From Neoarius graeffei (taxonomy: Eukaryota; Chordata; Actinopteri; Siluriformes; Ariidae), in contig NC_083589.1 of NCBI RefSeq assembly GCF_027579695.1, forward strand, positions 38,295,835 to 38,359,834: 64,000 nucleotides of DNA, in the 5' to 3' direction. Of the stretch, positions 6,598 to 64,000 are shown one piece after another. The position numbers and the translations under genes were made by a program. Under the pieces are notes generated by a model. It did no database searches. It was given only the letters and a program-made list of their open reading frames with translations, and had not been told where the DNA came from. Position 1 is the stretch's first letter, and each line of letters begins with the position of its first letter.

Positions 6598-6970
6598 GGG
6601 TGTAGTGGTTAGCGCTGTCGCCTCACAGCAAGAAGGTCCTGGGTTCGAGCCCCGGGGCCGGCGAGGGCCTTTCTGTGTAGAGTTTGCATGTTCTCCCCGT
6701 GTCCGCGTGGGTTTCCTCCGGGTGCTCCGGTTTCCCCCACAGTCCAAAGACATGCAGGTTAGGTTAACTGGTGACTCTAAATTGACCGTAGGTGTGAATG
6801 TGAGTGTGAATGGTTGTCTGTGTCTATGTGTCAGCCCTGTGATGACCTGGCGACTTGTCCAGGGTGTACCCCGCCTTTCGCCCGTAGTCAGCTGGGATAG
6901 GCTCCAGCTTGCCTGCGACCCTGTAGAAGGATAAAGCGGCTAGAGATAATGAGATGAGATGAGATGAGAT
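6598..6970 (+). mobile_element. SINE type A
   Basis: Near-complete copy with A box (GTGTAGTGGTTAGCGCTG) and B box (GGTTCGAGCCCC), the conserved middle region and a tail of GAGAT repeats at 6949-6970. The first bases of the head are diverged or missing, and no TSD is clear. Frames that appear open inside it are frames of the SINE and not genes. Confidence 0.9.
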
Positions 6971-7936: not shown

Positions 7937-9533
7937 TACAACCCCGATTCCAAAAAAGTTGGGACAAAGTACAAATTGTAAATAAAAACGGAATGCAATG
8001 ATGTGGAAGTTTCAAAATTCCATATTTTATTCAGAATAGAACACAGATGACATATCAAATGTTTAAACTGAGAAAATGTATCATTTAAAGAGAAAAATTA
8101 GGTGATTTTAAATTTCATGACAACACATCTCAAAGTTGGGACAAGGCCATGTTTACCACTGTGAGACATCACCTTTTCTCTTTACAACAGTCTGTAAACG
8201 TCTGGGGACTGAGGAGACAAGTTGCTCAAGTTTAGGGATAGGAATGTTAACCCATTCTTGTCTAATGTAGGATTCTAGTTGCTCAACTGTCTTAGGTCTT
8301 TTTTGTCGTATCTTCCGTTTTACGATGCGCCAAATGTTTTCTGTGGGTGAAAGATCTGGACTGCAGGCTGGCCAGTTCAGTACCCGGACCCTTCTTCTAC
8401 GCAGCCATGATGCTGTAATTGATGCAGTATGTGGTTTGGCATTGTCATGTTGGAAAATGCAAGGTCTTCCCTGAAAGAGCCGTCGTCTGGATGGGAGCAT
8501 ATGTTGCTCTAGAACCTGGATATACCTTTCAGCATTGATGGTGTCTTTCCAGATGTGTAAGCTGCCCATGCCACACGCACTAATGCAACCCCATACCATC
8601 AGAGATGCAGGCTTCTGAACTAAGCGCTGATAACAACTTGGGTCGTCCTTCTCCTCTTTAGTCCGAATGACACGTCGTCCCTGATTTCCATAAAGAACTT
8701 CACATTTTGATTCGTCTGACCACAGAACAGTTTTTCACTTTGCCACAGTCCATTTTAAATGAGCCTTGGCCCAGAGAAGACGTCTGCGCTTCTGGATTGT
8801 GTTTAGATGCGGCTTCTTCTTTGAGCTATAGAGCTGGCAACGGCAGATGGCACGGTGAATTGTGTTTACAGATAATGTTCTCTGGAAATATTCCTGAGCC
8901 CATTTTGTGATTTCCAATACAGAAGCATGCCTGTATGTGATGCAGTGCCGTCTAAGGGCCCGAAGATCACGGGCACCCAGTATGGTTTTCTGGCCTTGAC
9001 CTGTACGCACAGAGATTCTTCCAGATTCTCTGAATCTTTTGATGATATTATGCACTGTAGATGATGATATGTTCAAACTCTTTGCAATTTTACACTGTCA
9101 AGCTCCTTTCTGATATTGCTCCACTATTTGTTGGTGCAGAATTAGGGGGATTGGTGATCCTCTTCCCATCTTTACTTCTGAGAGCCGCTGCCACTCCAAG
9201 ATGCTCCTTTTATACCCAGTCATGTTAATGACCTATTGCCAGTTGACCTAATGAGTTGCAATTTGGTCCTCCAGCTGTTCCTTTTTTGTACCTTTAACTT
9301 TTCCAGCCTCTTATTGCCCCTGTCCCAACTTTTTTGAGATATGTTGCTGTCATGAAATTTCAAATGAGCCAATATTTGGCACGAAATTTCAAAATGTCTC
9401 ACTTTCGACATTTGATATGTTGTCTGTGTTCTGTTGTGAATACAATATCAGTTTTTGAGATTTGTAAATTATTGCATTCCATTTTTATTTACAATTTGTA
9501 CTTTGTCCCAACTTTTTTGGAATCGGGGTTGTA
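7937..9533 (-). mobile_element. Tc1-like transposon, full length, copy 1
   Basis: The inverted termini ACAACCCCGATTCCAAAAAA and its reverse complement are flanked by TA at 7937-7938 and 9532-9533. The length of about 1.6 kb is normal for Tc1. The transposase lies on the minus strand (8153-9169) and has two stop codons. A second copy of the same family is at 62306-63909. Confidence 0.95.
8153..9169 (-). pseudogene. Tc1-like transposase, two in-frame stops
   Basis: A single frame of 338 codons, normal for Tc1, runs from ATG 9167-9169. It holds the paired helix-turn-helix DNA-binding part ([18 protein letters not shown]) and the DDE catalytic core: WSDESK (first Asp), [11 protein letters not shown] (second Asp) and DLSPTENIW (Glu). 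TGA codons occur at 9098-9100 and at 8735-8737, the second where the sister copy has Trp. All three catalytic residues are present, so apart from the two stops the enzyme looks conserved. It is not functional as it stands. Confidence 0.93.
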
Positions 9534-9789
9534 TAAAAGTAATTTATTTTGCTTCACAGAAATGGTTTGCAGATTCATATTTGGATGAAGAGGGAAGGGC
9601 CCTGACCATAACGACACTCCTGACCTGAACTAAAGATCACCGTTTCTATTCACTGCATGTGCAGCATATGGGTGACTTATCATGGACTGAGAAATAATAA
9701 TAATAGGTCTTTATTACATAAGATAAAAACACATATCCTATGTTACAATATATAAGAATAATAAAAAGCACAAAGTTAATAGAAATAAG

Positions 9790-9855: not shown

Positions 9856-10241
9856 TAAAAGTATAAAATACGACTTCTAATTAAGCTAAATTGTATTTAA
9901 AAATTAGGCGGTTTACAAAAGAACTCATAAAACGCTGAGTGTTAATTTTAGGTTTTAAAGAGAACTTTTTCCTAAGATGGTATCTAGTGTTTTTAACCTT
10001 TGGCATCATTTTATATAACGGATGAGCTTCTAAATTAAAAACTTTAACGTATATTTTCTTATCTTGTTTTTTATAAAAGAGTATGAATATTAATATGGTT
10101 TGAAATATATCTACGCTTCTTACACCTATCTAAAAAACACTGAACCTTTGTTAGTTCTGCTTCAGCGGCACCATACATTGCGAGCCCATATAAAATATTA
10201 GGTAGTACGATGGTATTAAATAAATAATCAATTTCTGCTTG

Positions 10242-10614
10242 GGGCAGCACGGTGATGTAGTGATTAACGTTGTCGCCTCACAGCAAGAAGGTCCGGGTTC
10301 GAGCCCCGTGGCCGGCGAGGGCCTTTCTGTGCGGAGTTTGCATGTTCTCCCCCTGTCCATGTGGGTTTCCTCCGGGTGCTCCGGTTTCCTCCACAGTCCA
10401 AAGACATGCAGGTTAGGTTAACTGGTGACTCTAAATTGACCGTAGGTGTGAATGTGAGTGTGAATGGTTGTCTGTGTCTATGTGTCAGCCCTGTGATGAC
10501 CTGGCGACTTGTCCAGGGTGTACCCCGCCTTTCGCCCGTAGTCAGCTGGGATAGGTTCCAGCTTGCCTGCGACCCTGTAGAACAGGATAAAGCGGCTAGA
10601 GATAATGAGATGAG
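10242..10614 (+). mobile_element. SINE type A inside a LINE
   Basis: Complete copy with head GGGGCAGCACGG, B box GGTTCGAGCCCC and tail GATGAG. The TSD is 11 bp with one mismatch, ATTTCTGCTTG at 10231-10241 and ATTTCTGTTTG at 10615-10625. It interrupts the C-terminal coding part of the minus-strand LINE. Confidence 0.93.
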
Positions 10615-11450
10615 ATTTCTGTTTGATTGTACCCTTCTTTTCTAAGCGATCTTATTACGTATAGGCACTTATTTGCTTTTGTTAATTTGTTTTTCACATG
10701 AGTTGTGAATCTGGTGTTAGACTGAAAAGTGACACCAAGCAAAACAAGTTCCTTCACCTGAGGTATACCGGCTATCCTATCAAAGCTCTCCACATTGCCC
10801 TTTTTCACAAAAGTCAGCTCCTTACATTTACTAGGATTACAAGTCATGGAATTGGAATTTGACCTTCAAAAAACTGCTTTACTAATTTGCAAGCGCAATC
10901 CTTATCCCTCCACACAGGCACGGTAATAGTGGAATCATCTGCATATTTGTACAAGAAAGTTGTGGAACCATCATTAATTTCGAGGTCATTTAGAAAAATA
11001 TTAAAAAGATAGGGGCCACTAACACTACCCTGGGTGGTACCTTGATTAACCTCTTTCTAAAAAGCATCATGTATAACCCTTTGTTGCCTATTTTTCAAGA
11101 AATTTAGATACAGATTGGTAACATATGAGTTAAATGGAAGTTTTTTCAATTTTTCAGATAATAAATAATGTTTAACAGAGTCAAAAGCCTTGCTGAAGTC
11201 CATAGTGAATAAATGCACAGCTTTACAGTCAGGATGATCTAAATAATAAAGGTCACAATAATAAAGGACAGCGATCCTAAGCACACAAGTCGTTCTACCA
11301 AAGAATGGTTAAAGAAGAACAAAGTTAATGTTTTGGAATGGCCAAGTCAAAGTCCTGACCTTAAGCCAATCGAAATATTGTGGAAGGACCTGAAGCGAGC
11401 AGTTCATGTGAGGAAACCCACCAACATCCCAGAGTTGAAGCTGTTCTGTA

Positions 11451-12652
11451 TAGGGATCGACCGATATGTTTTTTTTTCAGGGCCGATATCGATACCGATT
11501 ATTATGGAATTGGGATGCCGATAACCAATATGTGCAACCGATAAACATAAACATTATAATTCACATGAAATTAAACATAGCACACACTGACACAGACTTT
11601 CATATCCATGAAATGTATGTTTAATTGTAAAATTGAACATGAAATTTTGTGCAGGGAGATGCCAGCAGCATTTGTACAATAAAGTCAAACATTAGTTAGA
11701 ATAAAATGAGAAATAAAATAATAATAAAATAAATATTCACCAATAAAAAAATAAATCACTCCCAACTATATTACAGCTCACCATTTTCAGTGGAAAATAA
11801 ATGAAAATACACTCTGGATTCTTGTACACTAAGAACTAAGTAAGACTTACCAACTTCAAGTAGTTTTTAAATAACAAATCAAGTGTAGGGAGCTGCCTGC
11901 AGCATTTTTTAAAAAGTAAAATCAAACATAAAGTAGGCTATCACTCCCTATTATGTAACAACTTAACAAGTAACCATCTACATTCTAATGCTTTTAATGC
12001 CCAAGCCTAATATTCCCAATTTAGGAGGATTATATTGTAGTGAAGGAAGCATTACATGTAGTTTCAGTGAGATTAGTTGGTTGTAGGCTAATTCAAGTGC
12101 TTCCTTCCATAAGCTAAGTTTGCCTGGCTACACAGATGCAAATGGACAATTTTAACGAGTAGTAGATGAAGAATGTAAACATATAATGATGTTGTGCTTT
12201 TGCAACTTGTGTGTTTGTGACTTACTGCGGCAAAAGCAGCGTGTCCTTACCTTGAAGTGGGATCTGCTTCTGCCCGAGTGCCCATACGGCCGCCTTGAAA
12301 CAGTTCACAGCGTTTAGCTACGCGTGTTGATTGGCTGTATCCCTTGTGCCGCTTCTGCCCGAGTGCCCGTACGGCCGCCTTGAAACAGTTCACAGCGTTT
12401 AGCTACACGTGTCGATTGGCTATATCTCTTGTGCCAAACAAATCAGATGTTGTGGTGGGCAGGACCGTGTTCTTGAACTCAGAGAGGCGAGTGCAGGAAA
12501 GGACGTGCAGTGACAGTTGCGTTAGGAACGAAATGGCTGCAAAAAGGCATGTTATCGGCATATCGGTGGAAATTATGGCCGATACCGATAACCCTAAAAA
12601 TGCAGAATATCGGCCCGATATATCGGCCAGGCCGATTATCGGTCGACCCCTA
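11451..12652. mobile_element. hAT-type MITE, 1.2 kb, with ATCGG-rich ends
   Basis: The inverted ends TAGGGATCGACCGATA and TAGGGGTCGACCGATAATCG have an 8-bp TSD, GTTCTGTA, at 11443-11450 and 12653-12660. The subterminal regions are dense in ATCGG/CCGAT, plausibly transposase-binding sites. Near the right end a short ATG frame begins MAAKRH (12532), like the start of ZBED1-type hAT transposases, but it runs straight into the terminal repeat. The element is therefore an internal-deletion derivative. An 85-bp duplication lies at 12266-12435. Confidence 0.9.
12266..12435. repeat. 85-bp direct tandem duplication
   Basis: Two units, 12266-12350 and 12351-12435, both starting GCTTCTGCCCGAGTGCCC, differ at only a few positions (mostly C/T or A/G). 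It lies inside the hAT MITE, next to the sequence that precedes the short MAAKR frame. It may be a duplicated promoter or binding segment; that role is inference. Confidence 0.9.
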
Positions 12653-12750: not shown

Positions 12751-15700
12751 CCGTACCGTTCGGATCACTACCTTGCTCGTGGTGGTACGGCTTGCGTGCT
12801 CCTGTGACCCCTAGAGCTATATCGGCTGGAGTTCTTGAACTCCTGGTAGGGCCACCCATGCCGAGAAGGTCGAAGGATAGGAGCCAGACAAAAAGTGATT
12901 CGCTGGTCCTCCAGGTTGGGGGTTGGTCAGAGGGCTAATATCCTGCTACTGTAAAACCACTTTATTACTGAAACCAGAAGCAGAGAGAATTCATTCAATC
13001 TCGGATGTTCAGTGGCTACTCGTCCGGACAAAGGAGAGCCTATACGCAGGAGGGACAAAGCCGACAGGACCCCCTCAGGCTGAACAGTCAACTGGTACAC
13101 CTGAGGAAAAACACTAAGATCGGTAACTGGAACGTGCGGACGCTATATCAAAGTGGAAACATTGCGCAGGTAGCAAGAGAGATGGCTAGGAGGAACATAG
13201 ATGTGATGGGCCTAAGTGAAACCCATTGGACTGGCCAAGGAAAAATGCAACTTCAAAGCGGCAAGACCATTATTTACGCTGGAAGAGATGATGACACTCA
13301 TAGGAGAAGAGTAGGGATACTGATGTCCAAGGCAGCAGCAAGAGCCCTGATGGATTGGAACCCAATCAGCGAACGGATCATCAAAGCAAGATTTTATTCA
13401 GCGTACATTAAGATGACGATGGTACACGTATATGCACCAACAGAATATGCGGACGAAGAAGAGAAAGACGAGTTCTACACAAGACTGCAAGACGTGTTAG
13501 ATGGATGTAAAACCCATGACATGCTGGTAATAACTGGTGATATGAACGCTAAAGTTGGTGAAAACAACGAGCATTATGAGAGGGTGATGGGAAGGCACGG
13601 TTTAGGGCAACGGAATGATAATGGAGAAAGGTTATGTGCACTAAGCGATATGAACAGCCTTGTGATAACTGGCACATTATTCCCCCACAAAGAGATTCAT
13701 AAAGCCACCTGGTTATCCCCGAATGGAAAAACGAAAAACCAGATAGACCACATCCTTATCAACAGAAGATTCAGGAATTCAGTGAAAGATACCAGAGTAT
13801 TTAGATCAGCAGACATTGGAAGTGACCATTATCTAGTGTGTATGAAAGTCAAGCTCAGTCTTAGAAACCAGCCGAAAGACAAATGCAACACAAGAAGGAA
13901 GTATGATATGGAGAAACTAAGAGAAAAAAGCATTGGAAAAGCATTCAGCATCACCTTGAAGAACAGATATCAAGTACTGGAGGAAGAGGAGCTAGAACAC
14001 CCAAGCGAAGATGGTATAGAAGGGGAATTCCAAATGATGGAAAAGGCATACACAGAGACAGCCGAAATAGTACTGGGAAAACCACGCAGGAAGAAGAAAC
14101 CATGGATCAGCGAAAAATCTTGGAAACTCATTAGCGAGAGAGAAGATACCCACAAAAAGATCTTGGGGACCCACTCCGAGAGAATAAAGAAGAAACTTAG
14201 AAAGAAATATGCCGACCAAAAGAGGGAAGTAAAGTCAAGCTTAAGATCTGATAAGAGGAAATGGATAGACGATATTGCAAAGGATGCAGAAGCAGCAGCC
14301 AGTAGTCACCAAATGAGAACATTATATGGACTAACAAAGACTTTGTGTAACGAAAAAGTGAGGAAAACCTTTGCCATCCTCGATAAAAATGGAAACACCC
14401 TAAGTGGCAAGGAAGAGATCTTAGCTAGATGGACTGAGCATTTTGAGGAAGTACTCGATTGAGGGGAACCGCCCAACCCAATAACAGTAGAAGAAGAGAA
14501 CGGATTCGATTTCTCTGATGTCATCAGTGAAATAGGAATAGAAGAACCAACAAAGGAAGAAGTACAGTCAGCGATAGGAGCTTTAAAAAAATGGAAAGAC
14601 ACCAGGCATTGACTCAATAACGGCTGAGATGCTGAAAGCAGGCGGAGAATTTTCAATCAACAAAGTCCATCAGTTGCTCCAGAATGTATGGAGACAGGAA
14701 GAGCTCCCATCAAAGTGGAGGCAGGGGATCATCATCAAATTACCGAAGAAAGGAAACCTCAAAGAATGCAAGAACTCTAGAGGGATAACCTTACTGTCCG
14801 TAGTGGGGAAAATACTTGGTAGGATAATTATTGATTGTGTGCGGAATGGTGTGGACAAAAGGTTGAGAGATGAACAAGCAGGATATAGGAGGGGAAGAGG
14901 AATGACAGAGCAAGTATTTGTACTAAGAAACATCCTTGAGCAAGTAAATGAATGCCAAGCGACGATATATGTAGGATTTGTAGATTTCGAGAAAGCGTTC
15001 GACTCGATCCATCGGAATAGTTTGTGGATAGTATTGAGAAGATATGGTATCCCAGAGAAGATCATTAAGATGGTAAGGCTATTTTATGAAGGCTTTAAAT
15101 GCGCTGTAGAAGATCAAGGAGAAAGAGGAGAGTGGTTTGATGTCAAAACAGGTGTTAAGCAAGGATGTAACATGTCGGGTTTCCTATTTCTAATTGTGCT
15201 GGACTGGGTAATGAGAAGAACAGTTGGATGTGGTGAAAATGGTATACGGTGGAAGTTCACGTCGAAATTAGACGATCTCGATTTTGCAGACGACTTAGCA
15301 CTGCTGTCCTCTACTCGACAACAAATGCAGGACAAATTGAACAGGTTAGATCAAGAAGCCAGACGCGTCGGACTCAAGATCAATGCAGAAAAGACCAAAA
15401 TGATGAGAATTAACCCTCATAACCAAGAAAAGATAGCTGTTGCAGGGCATGACATTGAGAATGTGGAACAGTTCAACTACCTAGGAGCAATAGTATGCAA
15501 GGAAGGAGGAGGAATGAAAGATCTAAAGAATAGAGTATCGAAGGCGAGAGGCTCATTTGTAAGATTAAAAAAGATCTGGAAGTCAAGCCACATATCAAGA
15601 AGAACAAAGCTTAAACTTTTTAAGACAATGATCATACCAGTCCTTCTATATGGATGCGAGACATGGAAAATGAATAAAGGGGATAACAAGATCATAGACA

Positions 15701-16077
15701 CGTTCCAGAACAAATGTCTCCGGCAAATACTAAGGATCCGTTGGGAAGATCACGTGAGCACAGATGAGCTACTACAAAGAACAACCATGAAGCCTATGAG
15801 CATAGAGGTGAAACGGCGCAAATGGATGATGATTGGCCACTTTCTAAGACAAGATCGCGGAAATAACAACAACACAGCACTAACATGGGCACCAGAAGGG
15901 AGACGAAAATGAGGGCGCCCTAAAACAACATGGAGGCGCACCGTAGAGAAGGAGACAAAAACAGCAGGATGGAGGTCATGGGATCATGTTCGTAGGAGCG
16001 CTGGCAACAAGAAAGAGTGGAGGAACTCTGTGGAGGCCTTATGTGCCACAGGGCGTGCAGGAGATAGGTAACAGGTA
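12751..16077 (+). mobile_element. RTE-type LINE, full length, 3.3 kb
   Basis: It is flanked by a 13-bp TSD, ATTGCTGCACAAG, at 12738-12750 and 16078-16090. It has a 254-base leader, one long coding region for endonuclease plus reverse transcriptase (13005-16071) and almost no 3' untranslated region, ending in a short GGTAACAGGTA repeat. Small size, one main ORF and a tiny 3' part are typical of the RTE clade. Because the 5' end is present, this was a complete insertion. Three lesions in the ORF disable it. Confidence 0.92.
13005..16071 (+). pseudogene. RTE polyprotein (APE endonuclease + reverse transcriptase), three lesions
   Basis: Starts at ATG 13005. The APE-type endonuclease nicks target DNA and shows GNWNVRT, GLSETHW, VYAPT, TGDMNAKVG, NQIDHILI and GSDHYLV (about residues 40-285). 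The reverse transcriptase shows VDFEKAFDS, GVKQGCNMSGF, LDFADDLALLS (catalytic Asp pair) and FNYLGAIV. The frame is broken by TGA at 14460-14462, by a seven-A run at 14585-14591 that is one base too long (+1 frameshift), and by TGA at 15910-15912. Reading continues sensibly after each lesion to the natural stop at 16069-16071. Both TGAs sit where Arg is expected (CGA to TGA). The lesions are few, so decay is recent. Confidence 0.92.
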
Positions 16078-17458: not shown

Positions 17459-17682
17459 TGCGGTATGGCATTGTAGATGTTTTTCAGTGTGAGCTATGAT
17501 ATTTTTGACCACTTGGTGGCAGTATAAAAGCACATTTTGGCATTGTAACAGGTCACTGGCTAAACCGTCAAGGAGAGGGAGGAAAACAAGTGATGCGACC
17601 AGTCACCTCTGTTCAGTCGCAAAGCTGTTCAGGAGAGTAGCGTTTTAACGGGAACGGGGTCAGGTCTTTTGTGGAGAACCCC

Positions 17683-18864
17683 ATGGGGATCTCAGACACC
17701 AGTAGTATGGATAGTGGAGGAGAAGACTGTGATCCTGAGGGCAATAGGACGTTTAGACCTTCCCCTACAAGGAGTAGGTCTAAACGGGATAGAGACAATC
17801 CGAGTAGATTTAGTGTTGGGAGTGATGAAGAGTCTCAGCGCCTTAAAACAAGAAGGAGTGAGTTTGTTGTAATTGTGAAATTGAAGAGTAATGCGCCCAA
17901 GACCTTGAACGCCGTGCATTTAGCTGAAAGCTTGTCGAAAGAAATGGGTGGCTTCCAGCATGCAAAATCTCTGGCTAATGGCAGGATCCTAGTGGTTTGT
18001 AATTCTAAAACGCAACAGGAGAAAGCCCTCTCTATCTCATCCCTTAGAAACTGCGATGTGGAGGTATATGTACCGGGGACTGGCACAAGGGCAAAGGGTG
18101 TAATTTATGGAGTGCCTATTGACATTACTGATGAGGAAATTCGGAACAATTCTATGGGAACAAAGATTGTTGAGGTTAGACGATTCCTAATTACTAGAAA
18201 CAATGAGAAAATGCCTAGTCGAACAGTACTGCTGACATTTGACTCGGCGGTTATGCCGAGTCGTGTTGGGATTGGATTTTTGAGTTTTCAGGTGAAGCCA
18301 TATATAAGGCCTCCTCTGCGGTGTTTCCATTGTCAGGGATATGGGCATGTTGCCTCTGTGTGCCGTTCGAAAAGAAAGTGTGGCAAGTGTGGGGGGGACC
18401 ACAAATATGAGGAGTGCGATGCGGCTTTGATGTGCTGCCCAAATTGTGGGGAAAACCACAGTTCCGCGTATAAGGGGTGTCGGATGTATGCGACCGCTGT
18501 GGAAGTTCAGAAAGTCAGAACAATTGATAAGATATCTTATGCGGAGGCTGTAAGAAGAGTTAAAAATGCTGGTCCTGGCCATCTCCCTCAACAGCCGCCA
18601 GCTCCTAGAGCCCAAGTAACTTCCACTCCAAGTGATAACTTTGTTATTAAAAAGATGGATCTTCTGGCATTTATCTCTGACGTAATCTCAGAATTGAAGT
18701 TTTCTCGAGTGGTCAACAAGTCTGATGTGGTTCAATTAGTCTCTAAGGCTGCAATCAAATATTTGCAAGTGAACATTCTCCCTGAATCTCTGTTCCGGTT
18801 TCTTAAAGAAAGGGATGGCCGTCCTATGATGTCCCAAAGTAGCACTATGGGAGGGAATAGGTAG
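17683..18864 (+). CDS. LINE ORF1 protein with three zinc knuckles
   Basis: The likely product is the RNA-binding, Gag-like protein that packages the LINE transcript. I chose ATG 17683 (CCCATGG, good Kozak context; 393 residues); an in-frame GTG lies four codons upstream. The N-terminus is charged and rich in Ser and Arg. Residues about 214-270 hold three cysteine clusters in a row: CFHCQGYGHVASVC (C-x2-C-x4-H-x4-C), CGKCGGDHKYEEC and CPNCGENHSSAYKGC. A Pro/Ala-rich stretch follows near residue 305. It ends at TAG 18862-18864, just before ORF2, so ORF2 is probably translated by stop-reinitiation. Confidence 0.92.
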   Translation: MGISDTSSMDSGGEDCDPEGNRTFRPSPTRSRSKRDRDNPSRFSVGSDEESQRLKTRRSEFVVIVKLKSNAPKTLNAVHLAESLSKEMGGFQHAKSLANGRILVVCNSKTQQEKALSISSLRNCDVEVYVPGTGTRAKGVIYGVPIDITDEEIRNNSMGTKIVEVRRFLITRNNEKMPSRTVLLTFDSAVMPSRVGIGFLSFQVKPYIRPPLRCFHCQGYGHVASVCRSKRKCGKCGGDHKYEECDAALMCCPNCGENHSSAYKGCRMYATAVEVQKVRTIDKISYAEAVRRVKNAGPGHLPQQPPAPRAQVTSTPSDNFVIKKMDLLAFISDVISELKFSRVVNKSDVVQLVSKAAIKYLQVNILPESLFRFLKERDGRPMMSQSSTMGGNR

Positions 18865-18869
18865 CTTTG

Positions 18870-21800
18870 ATGGTTTTTAATCTTCTGCAATGGAACGCTC
18901 GTAGTTTGATTGGAAATGGGCAGGAATTTAAAAGGTTTGTCACTTCTAGTGAAATTAGTTGTCATGTTATTTGTGTCCAGGAGACCTGGCTGAAGCCATC
19001 TTTAGATTTTGTCCTGCCTGGATATGTATCTGTGCGGAAAGATAGGAAGGACAGGGTAGGTGGTGGGTGTGTAACTTTTATTAAAGTCGGCGTTGAATTC
19101 AGGGTTGTTCCAATAGAGTCTTCCCTAGAAGTACTAGTGACTGAAATTTGGAGTACTACTGGTCGTTTTTCACTGATTAATTTTTACAACCCGTGTTTAC
19201 GTTTGCGCACAGTTGAGCTGGCTGATATATTAAGTCAGGTGCGCACCCCAGTTATTTGGACAGGAGATTTCAACGCGCATAATGTTTTATGGGGAAGCGG
19301 CAAGACGGATGGCAATGGGGAGGTAGTGGAAGATGTAATGTTTGATTTTAACTTAGTCTGTCTTAATGATGGACACCCCACTAGAGTGCAGCTTGGGTCG
19401 TCGACCACGTCATGCTTGGATTTGATGCTAGTTTCTGGCGAGTTGGCAGGCAAGAGTGGATGGGAAGTGTTTGATTTCAACTTAGGTAGTGACCATTTTC
19501 CTACGCTGGGAACTTTTGGACTGCAGCTTCCTGCTGAGATGATTAGGACAGATGGGAGGCTCAACTTTTTCAAAGCGGACTGGGAAAAGTTCGAAACTGT
19601 ATGCGATACTCTCCTTCCAAGCATACAAAATGAGTCAATAGACCAGTGGAACTCTGACCTTACAGGCCTAATTTCAGCAGCAGCAGCCTCTGCTATTCCT
19701 AAGAAAGGCATAGGCCTACAGAGGAAAGCGGTCCCCTGGTGGAGCAAAGAATGTGATGAAGCTATTAAGGAAAGAAATTCTGCCTTTAGACTCCTGAGGA
19801 GGTACCCCACCGTTGACAACCTTATACAGTATAAACGCTGCAGGGCTCTGGCTAGGAGAATCATTAAATCTGCTAAGAGGGATAGTTGGAGGGAATACTG
19901 CTCCTCTCTGTCAGGTGATACCCCTATTTCACAACTGTGGTCTACTGTGAGGAGGATGAATGGTATAGGAAAGAAGGTAGATATTCCTGTCCTGGTGGTT
20001 GGGGCTTCGACTGCTATGACTCCTGCAGAGAAGGCCAACCTTTTAGTGGAATCATTCAGGAAGGTTCACAGCTTTGATAATGTAGACCAGGAAAGCCGGG
20101 ACATGATGAACCAGTCTGTGGGTGGGTTTGTGTACTCCCATGAATTAATGTCTGATGATTTTAATGTTTTCTTTTCTTTAGATGAGTTAAAGAGAGCTAT
20201 AGCGGCAGGCAGGAAGACGGCCCCTGGCATGGATAATCTACATTACGAATTACTCAAACATGTTTCTGATGCCCTCCTGGATGAATTACTCAGTCTCATG
20301 AATGACATATGGAGGCAAGGTAGACTACCAAAGTCATGGAAACACGCAGTGGTCATCCCGGTGTTGAAGCCTGGGAAGGATCCCAGCTCCCCTTCTTCGT
20401 ACAGGCCTATCGCCCTTACATCGGTTTTATGCAAGGTTATGGAACGAATGGTGACAGACAGGTTGGTCCATTTTTTAGAATCTAAGGGGGCATTGGCAGA
20501 GTATCAAAGTGGATTTAGAAAGGGGAGGAGTACCATGGACAATGTGATTGCCTTAGACTATGAGATCAAAAGAGCATTTGCTAATAAGGAGTCTCTTATC
20601 AGTGTCTTTCTGGACATAGAGAAGGCGTACGACATGCTGTGGAGGGAGGGCCTTCTTGTGAAGCTTTCTAGATATGGTGTAAGTGGTAGGATGTTTGGGT
20701 GGATTAGAAATTTCCTGGAGGAGCGAACAATTCAGGTGAGGGTAGGGCAAGTCTTGTCAGATGTAGTCTCTATTGACAATGGAACTCCGCAGGGGAGTGT
20801 GATTAGCCCTGTTTTGTTCAATGTAATGATTAACGATATGTTTTTAGATCTAAACCAAGGTACTGGGAAGAGTTTGTATGCGGATGATGGGGCTCTCTGG
20901 GTCAAGGGTAGAAACATTCCCTTCATTACAAATAAGATGCAGGAAGAGCTGAATACTGTGGTTAAGTGGGCTAGGAAATGGGGGTTTAAAATATCTGTGG
21001 CCAAATCTAAATTTGTAGTTTTCAGCCGTAGCAAGAAAAAGTGGAACATTTCTTTGTCCCTTTATGATTCTTCTATAGAGAAAGTGGATAGTTTTAAATA
21101 TTTGGGAGTATGGTTGGATAGTAAATTGACCTGGAACGTTCATGTTTCTAAAGTGATTACAAAAACTAGCAAAGTGTTAAATGTTATGAGGTGTTTGTCT
21201 GGATTTTCATGGGGGGCTGAAAAGGGCACTTTACTAACTATTTATCAGGCTATGATAAGATCTATCTTTGACTATGGGTGCCAGGTATATGGTGCGGCTG
21301 CAATTTCTGTCTTAAAGAGGCTAGATGTCATTCAATTTAAGGCCCTTAGAGTCTGTTGTGGGGCATTTGCCTCCACATCGACCTCTGCTCTTCTGGTTGA
21401 AACAGGTGAGAAGCCTTTGATGGTGAGAAGAGTTCAGCTTTCTCTGCACTATTGGAATAGGCTCAGGGAGAAGTTTGCTATCTGCCCCACAAGCCACATA
21501 CTCATGGATTGTTATGAATTTGCCTCTGACCAGATGAGAAGCCATCCATTCCTTAGACAATGTATGATATGGGCCAAAGATTATAACTTATTGGATATGG
21601 TCCCAGTTAAGAGTTCCTATTGGGGATCAGTACCTGTGTGGCTCCTTCCCTCCTTCCAAATTGATTTTAAGTTGCACAAGGATAAACATGATGAGGAGAT
21701 TGAATTTTCTAAGGACTCTGTTCAGGAGCATATTCAACATAACTGGAATCTGCATTTGCAGATTTATACTGATGGATCTAAAGATCCCGAGTCAGGGAGA

Positions 21801-22616
21801 GTGAGTTGTGCGTTTTATGTTCCACAGCTAGATTTAAAATGCGGGTATAGAATAAGTGATAATATGTCTGTGTTTACAGCGGAGGCTTTGGGTATTTTAA
21901 AAGCCCTTCAATGGGTATTGGAGGCACGGCCTAAAAACGTGATTATTTGCTCTGACTCTTCATCAGTCTTACACTGTATTGAAACATACTCTTCAAATGC
22001 TCGCCCTGATCTAATCTCAGACATTCTATTGTTGCTGAATAATCTCCATAAGAGTGGCTGTGTTGTTTCTTTCCTGTGGGTCCCCGCCCATATGGGTATT
22101 AAGGGGAATGAACTAGTCGATCAGTGTGCAAAAGACAGCTTGAAAGAGGACACAATTTCTGTGTCGGTTAGCCCAGGTCGAACTGAACTAAGGAGTAAAC
22201 TCATGGAGGAAGTGTTCCAGACATGGCAGCTCCAGTGGGACAGAGATGTGAAAGGGAGACACTTGTATGCAATTCAGCCTTCTGTAAGCTCCCAGTGTAC
22301 TTTAACTGGAGTTAGGTCTCAGCAAGTAGTGCTGACACGTCTTAGATTAGGGCATTGTGCCCTAAACTCCAATCTATATCTGATTAATAAACACAGAGAT
22401 GGATTGTGCGACAAATGCAGAGTTCCTGAGACAATTTCTCATGTTTTGTTAGAATGTGTGCAATACAGTGTGCATAGACGTACGTTTTTTAACAACCTCT
22501 CCGGCCTTGGTGTTACCACTGTCTCTCTCCCTGTTTTGCTTCAGTTGAAGGATTATAAAGTTACCTCCATCCTGATTGGGTTTTTAAAAGCCTCTGGGCT
22601 TTATTCCAGAATCTAA
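18870..22616 (+). CDS. LINE ORF2: APE endonuclease, reverse transcriptase, RNase H
   Basis: The enzyme of target-primed reverse transcription, 1248 residues from ATG 18870. An upstream in-frame TTG at 18867 is less likely as start. Domains in order: APE endonuclease, about 1-220 (QWNARS, QETWL, TGDFNAHN, SCLDLMLVS, GSDHFPT); reverse transcriptase, about 470-780 (FRKGRS, LDIEKAYDM, NGTPQGSVISP, SLYADDGALWV near 670, FKYLGVWLD); RNase H, about 965-1110, with the D-E-D-D set visible (IYTDGSK, TAEALGI, CSDSSS, WVPAHMGIKGNELVDQCAKD); then a C-terminal C-x2-C-x7-H-x4-C motif (CDKCRVPETISHVLLEC). All catalytic residues appear present. It is in a different frame from ORF1, five bases after its stop. 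Confidence 0.95.
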   Translation: MVFNLLQWNARSLIGNGQEFKRFVTSSEISCHVICVQETWLKPSLDFVLPGYVSVRKDRKDRVGGGCVTFIKVGVEFRVVPIESSLEVLVTEIWSTTGRFSLINFYNPCLRLRTVELADILSQVRTPVIWTGDFNAHNVLWGSGKTDGNGEVVEDVMFDFNLVCLNDGHPTRVQLGSSTTSCLDLMLVSGELAGKSGWEVFDFNLGSDHFPTLGTFGLQLPAEMIRTDGRLNFFKADWEKFETVCDTLLPSIQNESIDQWNSDLTGLISAAAASAIPKKGIGLQRKAVPWWSKECDEAIKERNSAFRLLRRYPTVDNLIQYKRCRALARRIIKSAKRDSWREYCSSLSGDTPISQLWSTVRRMNGIGKKVDIPVLVVGASTAMTPAEKANLLVESFRKVHSFDNVDQESRDMMNQSVGGFVYSHELMSDDFNVFFSLDELKRAIAAGRKTAPGMDNLHYELLKHVSDALLDELLSLMNDIWRQGRLPKSWKHAVVIPVLKPGKDPSSPSSYRPIALTSVLCKVMERMVTDRLVHFLESKGALAEYQSGFRKGRSTMDNVIALDYEIKRAFANKESLISVFLDIEKAYDMLWREGLLVKLSRYGVSGRMFGWIRNFLEERTIQVRVGQVLSDVVSIDNGTPQGSVISPVLFNVMINDMFLDLNQGTGKSLYADDGALWVKGRNIPFITNKMQEELNTVVKWARKWGFKISVAKSKFVVFSRSKKKWNISLSLYDSSIEKVDSFKYLGVWLDSKLTWNVHVSKVITKTSKVLNVMRCLSGFSWGAEKGTLLTIYQAMIRSIFDYGCQVYGAAAISVLKRLDVIQFKALRVCCGAFASTSTSALLVETGEKPLMVRRVQLSLHYWNRLREKFAICPTSHILMDCYEFASDQMRSHPFLRQCMIWAKDYNLLDMVPVKSSYWGSVPVWLLPSFQIDFKLHKDKHDEEIEFSKDSVQEHIQHNWNLHLQIYTDGSKDPESGRVSCAFYVPQLDLKCGYRISDNMSVFTAEALGILKALQWVLEARPKNVIICSDSSSVLHCIETYSSNARPDLISDILLLLNNLHKSGCVVSFLWVPAHMGIKGNELVDQCAKDSLKEDTISVSVSPGRTELRSKLMEEVFQTWQLQWDRDVKGRHLYAIQPSVSSQCTLTGVRSQQVVLTRLRLGHCALNSNLYLINKHRDGLCDKCRVPETISHVLLECVQYSVHRRTFFNNLSGLGVTTVSLPVLLQLKDYKVTSILIGFLKASGLYSRI

Positions 22617-22734
22617 GAGTCTGACATGGTAGTGGACTTGATTATCCTGTAGGTGGCGGTAATACACCAGTTGGTGTCTAATCTGCCATATTAAACTCCG
22701 AAGAAGAAGAAGAAGAAGAAGTAACAGGTCACTG

Positions 22735-30402: not shown

Positions 30403-30777
30403 GGGCGGCACGGTGGTGTAGTGGTTAGCGCTGTCGCCTCACAGCAAGAAGGTCCGGGTTCGAGCCCCATGGCTGGCGAGGGCCTTTCTGTGCGGAGTTT
30501 GCATGTTCTCCCCGTGTCCGCGTGGGTTTCCTCCGGGTGCTCCGGTTTCCCCCACAGTCCAAAGACATGCAGGTTAGGTTAACTGGTGACTCTAAATTGA
30601 CCGTAGGTGTGAGTGTGAATGGTTGTCTGTGTCTATGTGTCAGCCCTGTGATGACCTGGCGACTTGTCCAGGGTGTACCCCGCCTTTCGCTCATAGTCAG
30701 CTGGGATAGGCTCCAGCTTGCCTGCGACCCTGTAGAACAGGATAAAGCGGCTAGAGATAATGCAATGAGATGAGATG
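30403..30777 (+). mobile_element. SINE type A, well preserved
   Basis: Full head GGGCGGCACGGTGGTGTAGT, B box GGTTCGAGCCCC and GATGAG tail. It lies inside the SWIM-domain transposon, near its right end. The TSD is weak (GGATG on both sides). Four bases of the usual GTGAATGTGAGTGTGAATGG block are deleted. Confidence 0.9.
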
Positions 30778-30950
30778 ACGTGGATGTGACGTCACGTGAA
30801 ACCCAGCAATAGGCAAGTTAGAGTAGCTAATTGACCTAATCCACATGTCTTTGGACTGTGGAAGGAAACTGGAGCACCTGGAGGAAGCCCACGTAGACAC
30901 AAGGAGAACATGCAAACTCCATACAGAAAGGCCTCCGTCAACTGGCACAT

Positions 30951-37557: not shown

Positions 37558-37931
37558 AGGGGCGGCACGGTGGTGTAGTGGTTAGCGCTGTCGCCTCACA
37601 GCAAGAAGGTCTTGGGTTCGAGCCCCGGGGCCGGCGAGGGCCTTCCTGTGTGGAGTTTGCATGTTCTCCCCATGTCCGCGTGGGTTTTCTCCGGGTGCTC
37701 CGGTTTCCCCCACAGTCCAAAGACATGCAGGTTAGGTTAAGTGGTGACTCTAAATTGACCGTAGGTGTGAATGTGAGTGTGAATGGTTGTCTGTGTCTAT
37801 GTGTCAGCCCTGTGATGACCTGGCGACTTGTCCAGGGTGTACCCCGCCTTTCGCCCGTAGTCAGCTGGGATAGGCTCCAGCTTGCCTGCGACCCTGTAGA
37901 AGGATAAAGCGGCTAGAGATAATGAGATGAG
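37558..37931 (+). mobile_element. SINE type A with 12-bp TSD
   Basis: Full-length copy with B box GGTTCGAGCCCC and TSD ACATTGCTAATG at 37546-37557 and 37932-37943. It sits inside the Tc1-like MITE, 32 bases right of the hAT TSD. Confidence 0.95.
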
Positions 37932-38362
37932 ACATTGCTAATGTGGTAAATGACTATTCTAGCTGCAAATGTTTTTTGTTTCTGGTTTTTGGTGCAATAT
38001 CTCCATAGGTGTATAGAGGTCCATTTCCAGCAACTATCACTCCAGTGTACTAATGGTACAATGTGTTTGCTCATTGCCTCAGAAGGCTAATGGACGATTA
38101 GAAAACCCTTGTACAATCATGTTAGCACAGCTGAAAACAGTTGAGCTCTTTAGAGAAGCTATAAAACTGACCTTCCTTTGAGCAGATTGAGTTTCTGGAG
38201 CATCACATTTGTGGGGTCGATTAAATGCTCAAAATGGCCAGAAAAATGTCTTGACTATATTTTCTATTCATTTTACAACTTATGGTGGTAAATAAAAGTG
38301 TGACTTTTCATGGAAAACACAAAATTGTCTGGGTGACCCCAAACTTTTGAATGGTAGTGTAA

Positions 38363-38886: not shown

Positions 38887-39175
38887 TAACCCCCAACTGC
38901 TCCCTGGGCTTCTCTGGGTATGTTGTACGTTACTCTGGATAAGAGCATCTGCTAAATGCCTGTAATGTAATGTGACCCTACAAATGAAGGCTTCTTATTT
39001 AGGCGACCCTGAAAAACCCTTTTAAAGTCAAACAAAACCCAAAAATAAACATGGTATGCTGACCACGGTAAGTGCGCCGATGTGCCCTCTGAATGTTTAA
39101 ATTTAAAATAAAACTTCATAACAGCAATTTATCCATTTTAAAAGTTATGATATTGCTAAAAATAGGTTTACCTGG

Positions 39176-39551
39176 GGGCGGCACAGTGGTGTAGTGGTTA
39201 GCGCTGTCGCCTCACAGCAAGAAGGTCCGGGTTCGAGCCCCGTGGCCGGCGAGGGCCTTCCTGTGCGGAGTTTGCATGTTCTCCCCGTGTCCGCGTGGGT
39301 TTCCTCCGGGTGCTCCATTTTCCCCCACAGTCCAAAGACATGCAGGTTAGGTTAACTGGTGACTCTAAATTGACCGTAGGTGTGAATGTGAGTGTGAATG
39401 GTTGTCTGTGTCTATGTGTCAGCCCTGTGATGACCTGGCGACTTGTCCAGGGTGTACCCCGCCTTTCGCCCGTAGTCAGCTGGGATAGGCTCCAGCTTGC
39501 CTGCGACCCTGTAGAACAGGATAAAGCGGCTAGAGATAATGAGATGAGATG
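39176..39551 (+). mobile_element. SINE type A with 12-bp TSD
   Basis: Complete copy, B box GGTTCGAGCCCC, tail GATGAGATG. TSD AGGTTTACCTGG at 39164-39175 and 39552-39563, perfect. Among the best preserved copies here. Confidence 0.95.
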
Positions 39552-39563
39552 AGGTTTACCTGG

Positions 39564-40613
39564 ATGCAACCATTTGCACTGAAACTGGATATCCGCCTGT
39601 GACATTACTGGCACACTAGTACACCGTTTACTTTCGTTACACAGAGCCATCAAATAAAAGCTTCTAAGTCTTAAAAAAAAATCCCCAGGCACCACTGCTC
39701 TCTCTCTCTCTCTCTCTCTGTGATTTCACTGCTTCAGATGGGTTGAATACAGAGAAAGAATTTCACTGTGCTATAATGTAGTAGTATATGTGACAATTAT
39801 CGAACAGATTTTCACTGTCACTCACAACCTGCAATGGATAATTCAAAATGTGAATTACATTTCCACCACTTTATGCATCAACCAATGGTTTTACCAATTT
39901 TTGTTAATGGACTGGTGAAACTTGGGGCACATTCAATTTGAAAACCGTATGTTCCATTTCCAGCTTGAACAACAGGTTTCCTTGTAACACTATGAAACAT
40001 TGTACAGTGGGCTTTGAGGTATGTTTTCCCTCCTTTGGTGCGTGTGTCAGAAGTGTTATCCAATCAGCAGTAACGTGTATATACAGTAAACCTTGCCTTA
40101 TTAAAAAGGCAGCACGCACAATGGATCCCACTAACATCCTTTACAAACGCACTCACTACAGCTTGGTGTATGCAAGAGCTGAAGACTTTATAATACATGT
40201 TTGTCATAAGTATTATATAGTAAAGTTTTTTCAGTAGAATAAAAGACAGGTGCTGAAAATTCTTTGGAAAGAATTCCATGAATAGCCTTCTAAGCTGCCA
40301 TAGTTGCAAAGTTTGCATAACAAAACAGGGTGTTCAATACACCATCGTTTCTGTTTAAATAAATATTTTGCTATGTTTTATCTGGGCTGAACCTATAGCC
40401 CTGGAATTTGGATGGTAAATTAATCAGAATTTGTGGTTTTCTGATACACCTAGTGCTAATCTGCGACTGATGAATACAAAATGTGATTGCCAGCCATAAG
40501 CAGTTACTTTATTGGTTGATGCAAAAAATGATTGACAGATTCCCTACCTATGTTCCCACCTATTGGGTCTCGAGGCTGCAGCATTACACTAATACCTATT
40601 TCCACTTAAAGGG
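39564..40613. other. No gene; small SINE tail fragment
   Basis: Positions 39720-39795 resemble the type B SINE tail (TTTCACTGCTTCAGATGGGT, then TTTCACTGTGCT) after a (TC)n run at 39700-39718. The rest has no recognised feature. Confidence 0.5.
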
Positions 40614-40621
40614 TACCTGCA

Positions 40622-40984
40622 GGGGTGGCATGGTGGTGTAGTTGTTAGCACTGTTGTCTCACAGCAAGAAGGTTCTGGGTTTGAGCCCAGTGGCCGACGG
40701 GGGCTTTTCTGTGTGGAGTTTACATGTTCTCCCTGTGTCTGTGTGGGTTTCCTCTGGGTGCTCCGGTTTCCCCCACAGTCCAAAGACATGCAAGTTAGGT
40801 TAACTGGTGGCTCTAAATTGACTGTAGGTGTGAATGTGAGTGTGAATGGTTGTTTGTCTCTATGTCTCAGCCCTGCGATGATCTGATGACTTGTCCAGGG
40901 TGTACCTTGCCCATAGTCAGCTGGGATAGGCTCCAGCTTGCCTGTAACCCTGCACAGGATAAGTGGTTATAGATAATGGATGGA
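40622..40984 (+). mobile_element. SINE type A (older subtype, GGATGG tail)
   Basis: A box is TGGTGTAGTTGTTAGCACTG and the B box has decayed to GGTTTGAGCCCA. Tail AATGGATGGA. A 9-bp TSD with one mismatch, TACCTGCAG and TACCAGCAG, flanks it. More CpG loss than in the GATGAG-tailed copies. Confidence 0.88.
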
Positions 40985-45373: not shown

Positions 45374-48063
45374 GAATCAGAATCAGAAATACTTTAATAA
45401 TCCAGAGGGGAAATTGAGTACATTTGCAGTTGCTCACACTCAAGTAGAGAAAAGAAATTAAAAAAATTAAACAGATATGTAAAATGTAAACCATATATCA
45501 ATAGAATATCAGTAGTAAAATAATAGAATGAGTAAAATCAATAGAATAAGTAGTACAATAATGGCTATGGTACATAGAAGTTATTACACAATTATTGCAC
45601 ATTGAGTGAGGTACTGAATAGTTATATAATATAATTATTGAACCTATGTACAGTGTGGATGAACATAATACAGTGGACTTATTACACAGATGCAGTATTG
45701 AATAGTCCATTGTCTATTGAGTATCTGAGCCTCTGAGGGACAGGTTGAAAAGATTGATGGCCACAGGCAGGCATGACCTCCTGTGGCACTCTGTAGTGCA
45801 TCTTGGGGGAATAAATCTTTCACTGAAAGTACTCCTTTGATTGGCCAGCACGCTATGGAGTGGGTTGGAGACATTGTCCAGGATGATACGCAGTTTAGCC
45901 AGCATGCTCTCCTCAGACACTGTCTCTAGAGAGTCCAGCTCCACTCCCACAATGTCACCGGCCTTGCAAATCAGTTTATTGAGTCTGTTGGTGTCCATTG
46001 CCCTCAGCCTGCTACACCAGCACAAAACAGCATACAGGAGAGCACTGGCCACCTCAGACTCATAAAACATCCTCAGTATAATCCTGCAGATGTTGAAGGA
46101 CCTCAGCTTTTTAGAAAGTAGAGATGGCTTTGGCCCTTCTTGTATATGGCCTCTGTATTTTTAGTCCAGTCCAGTCTATTGTCAGTATGTACCCCTAGGT
46201 ATTTGCAGTCATACACAATGTCTACACTCACCCCATGAATAGAAGACAGAGGTCACCTTGTTCCTTCTCATGTCCACCACTAGTTCTTTAGTCTTTGTCA
46301 CATTGCTCATACCATGTAATAAAGTTTTCCACTACCAGACTAGAAGAAGAAACCTTTATTTGTCACATGCACACTTCAAGCACAGTGAGATTCATCCTCT
46401 GCATTTAACCCATCTGAAGCAGTGGGGTTTTACACACACACGCCCAGAGCAGTGGGCAGCCATACTACAGTGCCCGGGGAGCAGATAGAGGTTAGGTACC
46501 TTGCTCAAGGGCACTTCAGCCCAAGGCCACCCCATGTTAACCTAACTGCATGTTTTTGAACTATGGGGGAAACCGGAGCACCCAGAGGAAACCCACGCAG
46601 ACACGGGTAGAACATGCAAACTCCACACAGAAAGGCCCCCACTGGCCGCTGGGCTCAAACCCAGAACCTTCTTGCTGTGAGGCGACAGTGCTAACCACTA
46701 CACCACCGTGCCACCGCTATACTCAGTCTCATCATCCTTACTGATATTTCCAACTATAGCAGAGTCATCAGAGTACTTCTGAAGATGGCAGAATTCTGTC
46801 TGATAGTTGAAGTACATGGTGTAGAAGGTGAAGAGGAAGGGAGGAAGGATTGTCCCCTGTGGTGCCACAGTATTGCTGACCACCTTATCTAATGCACAGT
46901 GTTGTAAGTGTACATACTGTGGCCTGCCAGTCAGGTAACTGACAATCCAGGACATGAGGTGGGCCTTCACATTCATCATCATCAGCTTCTCACCCAGATG
47001 TACGGGCTGGATGGTGTTGAAAGCACTGGAGAAGTCAAAGAACATTACCCTCACGGTGCTTGACGGTTTGTCCAGGTGGGAGTAGGCACGGTCAAGCAGG
47101 TGGACTGTGATGTCCTCAACTCCAAATTGGGGCTGGTAGGCGAACTGGAGAGGGTCTAAGAATTATCTGGCCATAGGCCAGAGCTGCTCCAGAGCAAGTT
47201 TCTTCAGGGTGTTCATGATGTGAGACGTCAAAGCCACTGACCTGTAATCCTTGGAGCCACTAAGGCATGGCATCTTTGGCACTGGGATGAGGCATGGCAT
47301 CTTCCACATCATAGGGAACGTCTGAAGACTTAGGCTTATGTTAAAGACATGATGAAGCACTCCACATAGCTGGGGGCACAGGCTTTTAAGCACCCTGGGG
47401 ATGACACCACTAGGACCAGCAGCCTTGCGTGAGTGGAGACATTTCAGCTGTCTTCTTACCTGGTCAGCAGTGAAACTTATTATGGAGATTTCATGTGGGG
47501 GAGGGGTGATGGTGTCAGTTTGACCAGGACAAATGCTCTAGGAGACAGTGAGGGGAGGGGAGGGGAGGGGGTGGGCAATGCCATCAGTTGATAATGGTGG
47601 GTCATCTGGAAGTCGGAAGAGAAGTGGAAGAGCTGGTGGTGGAGTTGATGTTAGTCCTGGGCAGGCAACATATCGGTCAGGGGGGTGGACACTGAATCAA
47701 ATCTATTGAAAAAGATATTCAATTAATTGGCCCTATCCATACCACCTTTAGCCACTCTGCTGCCTGTTGGTCTGAAACCAGTGATGGTCTTCATGCCACT
47801 CCATACCTCTCTCATTTCAGTTTCCTCCTGTCTCCTTAGCCTATCTGATCTTCACTTTAAGCTCCACCTGGTTAGTCCTCAACTCCTCCCTATTGTTAGT
47901 TCTAAAAGCCATCTTCCTGGCATTGAGAATGCCCTTTATGTCTATTGTTACCCATGGCTTGTTATTTGAATCACAAATGACAGTCTTTTCTGGGACAATG
48001 CAGCCCTCAAAGAAGTTGATGTCATCTGTAATGCAATCAGTGAGCCCATCAATGTCCTAAGTG
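45374..48063 (-). pseudogene. L2/Rex1-like LINE, split by a SINE
   Basis: Minus strand, read right to left: NNKPWVTIDIKGILNARKMA (about 47970), REVWSGMKTITGF, KAAGPSGVIPRVLKSLCPQL, SKDYRSVALTSH, DPLQFAYQPQFGVEDITVHL, RVMFFDFSSAFNTIQP, APQGTILPPFLFTFYT and LQKYSDDSAIVG (YSDD catalytic pair), then after the SINE LYAVLCWCSRL and NQRSTFSERFIPPRC. The 3' end is the TTTCTGATTCTGATTCAAC sequence near 45374. Several stops and shifts occur. The 5' end is lost near 48063. These motifs are typical of the CR1/L2/Rex1 group. Confidence 0.85.
46344..46720 (-). mobile_element. SINE type B inside a LINE
   Basis: Minus-strand type B copy: head with TGGTGTAGTGGTTAGCACTG and decayed B box, middle block, the CCTTGAGCAAGGTACCTAAC unit and a tail of AAAGGTTTCTTCTTC. 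It lies between the YSDD box and the following VVENF segment of the LINE reverse transcriptase. The TSD is short or absent. Confidence 0.9.
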
Positions 48064-52966: not shown

Positions 52967-53342
52967 CTCTCATCTCATTATCTCTAGCCGCTTTATCCTG
53001 TTCTACAGGGTCGCAGGCAAGCTGGAGCCTATCCCAGCTGACTATGGGCGAAAGGCAGGGTACACCCTGGACAAGTCGCCAGGTCATCACAGGGCTGACA
53101 CATAGACACAGACAACCATTCACACTCACATTCACACCTACGGTCAATTTAGAGTCACCAGTTAACCTAACCTGCATGTCTTTGGACTGTGGGGGAAACC
53201 GGAGCACCCGGAGGAAACCCACGCGGACACAGGGAGAACATGCAAACTCCACACAGAAAGGCCCTCGCCGGCCACGGGGCTCGAATCTGGACCTTCTTGC
53301 TGTGAGGCAACAGCGCTAACCACTACACCACCGTGCCGCCCC
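52967..53342 (-). mobile_element. SINE type A with 10-bp TSD
   Basis: Complete minus-strand copy; the B box has decayed slightly (GATTCGAGCCCC). TSD GACAGTAAGA at 52957-52966 and 53343-53352. Confidence 0.94.
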
Positions 53343-53770
53343 GACAGTAAGAACATTTGACTCATTAAATTAATGGAAGTAATTAATGGAACAAGACAAA
53401 TAAGTCATGGAAGCCTATGTCACCCCAAAAAAAGAATTAAGATGACATTAATGTAAGTCTACATTACTGTAAGGAAAGAAAATATTTTTGGGGGCAGGTC
53501 CTCTATTTCTTTATTAGCAACATGCAAGAAAGCATAATTTACAGATTGCAAAACTAACCCACAAAGTATGTATTAGCTAATCAGTTATGTTTAGGTTAAG
53601 AGGAAAATTTTATTCTTGGCAGAATTATACTGAGCAATTTTATTGGACAAGTAAGATTTTACTTATAAGGAATGTGACTCTGTATTAAATTTAAGGACTA
53701 AATTAACCAATGAATTTCGTTGTAAAATACACACAACATATATCAAAATGTGAAGGCAATGGGCTTCTTA

Positions 53771-57827: not shown

Positions 57828-58340
57828 TCACACTCTTTCTCACCCCACTTAGTGCCTTGGAAAAAAACAGGCCCTCAGCCCTTTCCACATCATGAATAAT
57901 TAAGGACTACTGAGCAGTTCAGTGAGCTGATAAATACAGAGCTATTTTTAGGTCATATTAAAAAAAAGAAACTGAAAGAAAAAGAAGAAGAAGAAGAAGA
58001 AGGTCATGACATTTAAAACTGTATGACAGTGATAGCAGCAAGACTCAGAGAGCACAAGAGACCAATATGACCATGCATGTGAGCATCGCTATACTGCTTA
58101 CCCCCTAAACCATAGCAACAGTAATAAGATGACAAACAAGCATAACCTATTTCCATCCACTAGATCTGCTAAGGCCACTGGAGCTCATTATACTGATAAC
58201 AAAGCTCTAAAGGTCAGCAGTAGATTATGGAAAAGGTAAAGGAGGTAGTGGACTTCTGGTCTTCTCCTATTGTTCTGATATGACCAAGATTCATACAGTG
58301 ACCTTCCTTTAAACCCAAAGTCTGCTGGATTACCCACAGG

Positions 58341-63909: not shown

Positions 63910-64000
63910 TACTGTGCTCATCACACTTATTCCCCTGTAGTTAATGGGGACTTTAGGGTCTTTCTTTGCTGATTTTGGGATGGGTTTAATTATTGATTTA

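Follow-up and report, generated by a model that had tools for sequence, protein, structure and literature searches.

We have identified, in a repeat-rich and apparently fish-derived stretch of 64,000 nucleotides (the window), what is very probably a full-length and recently inserted non-LTR retrotransposon (LINE) of the I group. The copy lies on the forward strand at 17559..22720, that is, 5162 bases between the two copies of a target-site duplication. A first-pass annotation had described it as a complete, uninterrupted I/Nimb-type LINE that may still be active. Exact reading frames, tail and duplication support its completeness, and the coordinates given for ORF1, ORF2, the tail end (22720) and the duplication (17545 and 22721) all proved exact. 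The I-group part of the label is likewise supported, by the content and order of an AP-type endonuclease, reverse transcriptase and RNase H.

Boundaries of the element and its duplication

The target-site duplication is a perfect 14-bp pair, GTAACAGGTCACTG, with the left copy at 17545..17558 and the right copy at 22721..22734 (both + strand), and a + strand search of the window finds this string only at 17545 and 22721. Within it the element opens with a 5' leader of 124 bases (17559..17682, + strand), whose first base is set by the duplication boundary and whose true 5' end is therefore a predicted one, and closes with a (GAA)7 tail (22700..22720, + strand). Thus, two hallmarks of a LINE, a target-site duplication and a 3' tail, are both present and exact, as the earlier description of a perfect duplication and intact (GAA)n tail had held. 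Long terminal repeats were sought by comparing the window with itself (E up to 1e-10), which gave no pair touching 17559-22720.

Among 58,688 position pairs at the 5162-base spacing, the only 14-bp abutting match is the element's own duplication; the next best is one 13-bp match in a G-run, and no other is at least 9 bp long. Random draws at the same spacing reached 13 bp in 2 cases and 14 bp in 5 (7 of 200,000 in total), presumably at these same two places, since the full scan holds no other match of at least 9 bp. When the element ends were allowed to float by 15 bases, 13 or 14 bp was reached in 5 of 4,000 draws. A lone 14-bp pair is nevertheless not rare in a window so rich in repeats: 26 14-mers containing all four bases occur exactly twice on the + strand at a distance of 3-8 kb, of which 23 lie in listed repeats, one is the duplication and two are other pairs. 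It is because the GTAACAGGTCACTG pair adjoins both predicted ends of the element that it is telling.

Reading frames, domains and RNA signals

Start and stop positions confirm that both ORFs are open, over 393 and 1248 codons. ORF1 (17683..18864, + strand; ATG at 17683, TAG at 18862-18864) carries two cysteine knuckles located by pattern match, C2C4H4C at 18322-18363 and C2C3H4C at 18379-18417 (both + strand), so that the CCHC knuckles typical of I-group ORF1 are represented by one standard and one near-standard pattern. A third cysteine block, recognized by eye, lies downstream of both. The Pfam scan of ORF1 returned no family at E 0.001, with zf-CCHC at 14.3 bits (E 0.046) falling under the Pfam cut-off of 20.8; among solved structures, residues 209-246 match the HIV nucleocapsid knuckles (E 0.0027). 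Two single-sequence structure models are of low confidence (mean pLDDT 33.2 and 38.6), too weak for a fold search. In these models residues ~60-130 may follow a beta-alpha-beta-beta-alpha-beta order, which is that of the RRM.

ORF2 (18870..22616, + strand; ATG at 18870, TAA at 22614-22616) is predicted to encode, in this order, an AP-type endonuclease (18882..19502; QWN, QETW, GDFNAHN and SDH), a reverse transcriptase (20220..21119; FLDIEKAYD, TPQGSVISP and YADD), an RNase H downstream of it (21762..22133; D-E-D-H-D residues) and a C-terminal CCHC motif (22407..22457), all on the + strand. The three enzyme domains rest on Pfam and motif strings, the CCHC on its motif string. Five Pfam models scored above their cut-offs: Exo_endo_phos_2 (1.8e-18), Exo_endo_phos (6.7e-10), RVT_1 (2.2e-41), RNase_H (1.7e-11) and RVT_3 (9.1e-5). 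ORF2 therefore unites endonuclease and reverse transcriptase in a single frame, a further LINE hallmark. In the comparison with solved structures, the RNase H segment aligned with HIV-1 RNase H (6.5e-5) over its second half only. We presume the names of the reverse transcriptase blocks, and likewise the catalytic assignment of residues in the endonuclease and reverse transcriptase motifs. The RNase H residues agree with the catalytic set D-E-D-H/R-D given in the available text of PMC4640811. Every endonuclease, reverse transcriptase and RNase H string that was sought was located, which bears out the earlier claim that the catalytic motifs are present; such motifs do not prove enzyme activity, and the domains are predicted ones.

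Between the frames, the ORF1 TAG is followed by five bases and then by the ORF2 ATG in a different frame (18862..18872, + strand), a candidate site for stop and restart of translation. RNA folding around this junction did not exceed that of shuffled sequences on either the downstream side (z 0.48; 136 of 200 shuffles as good) or the upstream side (z -0.05; 87 of 200), so that no downstream structure like that of SART1 was seen.

At the other end, a putative stem-loop stands directly before the tail (22653..22689, + strand), as judged by folding against shuffles. A 55-base piece containing it folds at -16.9 kcal/mol (z -2.98, with none of 200 shuffles as stable), a piece that was picked after the hairpin had been seen; a longer piece of 86 bases gave z -1.90, with 12 of 200 shuffles as good. 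Stem-loops are common at the 3' ends of stringent-type LINEs, according to excerpts of PMC3747384. A possible second tail, the (GAA)6 run at 57984-58001, was set aside: it is preceded by what reads as an A-rich simple repeat, and 22652 is the sole position of GGTGGCGGTAA in the window. A literature search with the 3'-tail strings gave only an unrelated match.

Relatives and other repeats in the window

Domain content and order support a placement of the element in the I group, with Nimb as a candidate clade within it. An RNase H downstream of the reverse transcriptase is characteristic of the I group, and the I element itself has two ORFs. The occurrence of RNase H in this group is noted in the extract of PMC4640811, and the I element and I clade share with our copy both RNase H and a 3' tail of short repeats, although the repeats are TAA in the I element (PMC3747384) and GAA in the present copy. 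The Nimb clade (Nimbus, locust Limi, zebrafish Nimb-1_DR and others) has the same I-group layout with RNase H, a likeness drawn by description only. In the accessible passages, Limi has three cysteine-rich motifs in ORF1 (PMC3391268), the clade is on record from insects, molluscs and fishes (PMC3391268, PMC9004415), including teleosts (PMC9004415), and a table of I-clade families has nine entries, each of them listed for zebrafish (PMC4746887). We conclude that the element is an addition to a known type of LINE family, and of the I group by the features tested.

Likenesses to other systems are more partial. The endonuclease piece matched one solved structure at E up to 1, that of TRAS1 from silkworm (1wdu; E 0.0034, residues 127-212 only), and the reverse transcriptase found its best solved match in human LINE-1 ORF2p (6.9e-23). 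Human LINE-1, however, has a poly(A) tail where this element has (GAA)7, and is not known to carry an RNase H. TRAS1 belongs to the R1 clade and, like SART1, targets telomeric repeats. SART1, an R1-clade element also of silkworm, couples the translation of its ORFs through a stop-start site that overlaps and needs a downstream structure (PMC5972666, in the portion available), whereas here TAG and ATG lie five bases apart with no standout folding. Searches of viral and prokaryote DNA collections gave no relatives of ORF2 or of its reverse transcriptase part, and are uninformative on animal relatives because of what those collections hold. The first 916 residues of ORF2 drew two phage records by tblastn, at identities of 23.4% and 26.7% (residues 383-657 and 470-703), which we took as ordinary reverse transcriptase resemblance.

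Other LINEs were sought in the rest of the window by tblastn of ORF1 and ORF2 (E up to 0.01). ORF1 had no match, and ORF2 found four other reverse transcriptase stretches (10919-11203, 14599-15804, 46755-47474 and 61267-62337). All are short or broken, as was claimed for the window's other LINEs, the first and third being the short ones. The LINE at 12972-15912 has endonuclease and reverse transcriptase matches and DUF6451 near its end; its reading frame shifts between 14460 and 14587, and an RNase H match was not found in it. The fragment at 60652-62448 has a reverse transcriptase and one stop, at 61222-61224, gave no endonuclease match in the two ORFs scanned, and runs into a Tc1-like copy that begins at 62306.

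That copy (62306-63911) and a second Tc1/mariner-like one (7937-9535) are 95.97% identical over 1611 aligned bases, and both have inverted ends of ~215 bases that are ~80% alike; DDE_3 scores above its cut-off in 7937-9535, and a Tc3-type HTH below its cut-off in 62306-63911. Additionally, a dispersed repeat of ~370 bases, which we take to be a tRNA-derived SINE by its looks, has seven copies (6599-6967, 10238-10616, 30403-30786, 37559-37932, 39169-39566, 40614-40984 and 52968-53348) that are 84.7-98.3% identical across their 21 pairs, with partial copies elsewhere. Two of the seven begin GGGCGGCACGGTGGTGTAG. ARAGORN found no tRNA in the window, this repeat included, and Rfam gave nothing in the window at the gathering cut-off. 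An 85-base unit stands in two tandem copies, 94% alike, at 12266-12435.

Age and mobility

The intact reading frames, taken under neutrality, indicate that the copy is young. In the 4,923 coding bases, 3.5-4.0% of single-base changes create a stop or alter a start codon under three mutation models. With 0, 0.08 or 0.15 indels assumed per substitution, and 80% of indels assumed harmful, the probability of survival without such damage drops to 5% once 0.0038-0.0175 substitutions per site have accumulated, taken across all indel rates (~0.015-0.0175, ~0.006 and ~0.004, respectively). If it has evolved neutrally from the time of its insertion, the copy has thus probably accumulated under ~0.4-1.8% substitutions, depending on the indel rate assumed. 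The earlier claim of youth is in keeping with this model and with the exact duplication. CpG content does not support it, as the element (observed/expected 0.43) is depleted no less than the remaining window sequence (0.47); TG+CA leans the opposite way, towards youth (1.14 versus 1.28). Our conclusion on age rests on neither ratio.

With every part expected from motifs in place, and the copy young, the element may be competent to move. Possible, though slightly less likely than not, is a reading in which it acts as a source for a family amplifying now; two open ORFs, an exact duplication and an intact tail and motifs speak for this. Against this, a blastn comparison (E up to 1) with the remainder of the window brought up no close copy, only six matches of 19-21 bases, of which five involve the tail end and the sixth the leader. 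Nearly as likely is that the copy is young and structurally complete yet unable to move, owing to a missense change or the lack of a promoter; a single copy leaves room for either, although no motif string that was sought is missing and the domain scores are good. An old insertion kept intact by selection, as after domestication, would account for the intact ORFs alone, and is very improbable because selection on proteins would not be expected to preserve both the duplication and the tail perfectly. An explanation by chance reading frames, or by an artefact of assembly, drew no support and can be dismissed almost entirely, given a stop-free run of 1251 codons (stop to stop) at ORF2 against a longest of 195 and a mean of 99.5 in 300 mononucleotide shuffles read in three forward frames, together with strong domain matches and a duplication at both ends.

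In the likely cycle of such an element, transcription would be driven by a promoter within the 5' leader, and the ORF1 protein, to judge from its cysteine knuckles, would bind the element RNA. Ribosomes ending ORF1 at the TAG would restart five bases on, at the ORF2 ATG. The ORF2 endonuclease would then nick the bottom strand of the target, at a site that the duplication would place between 17544 and 17545, and the reverse transcriptase, on recognizing the 3' hairpin together with the GAA tail, would copy the RNA from the nick. RNase H would remove the RNA, and repair would have left the 14-bp duplication, which is itself seen in the sequence. The fuller proposal, in which an active source of an amplifying Nimb/I family combines a stop-restart junction (TAG, five bases, ATG) free of SART1-type structure with a 3' hairpin and GAA tail as the recognition signal, is possible but rather unlikely.

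Should the element prove competent, retrotransposition assays would gain a natural I-group LINE, and recent insertions in the host species a marker. Otherwise it stands as a clear-cut representative of a known family.
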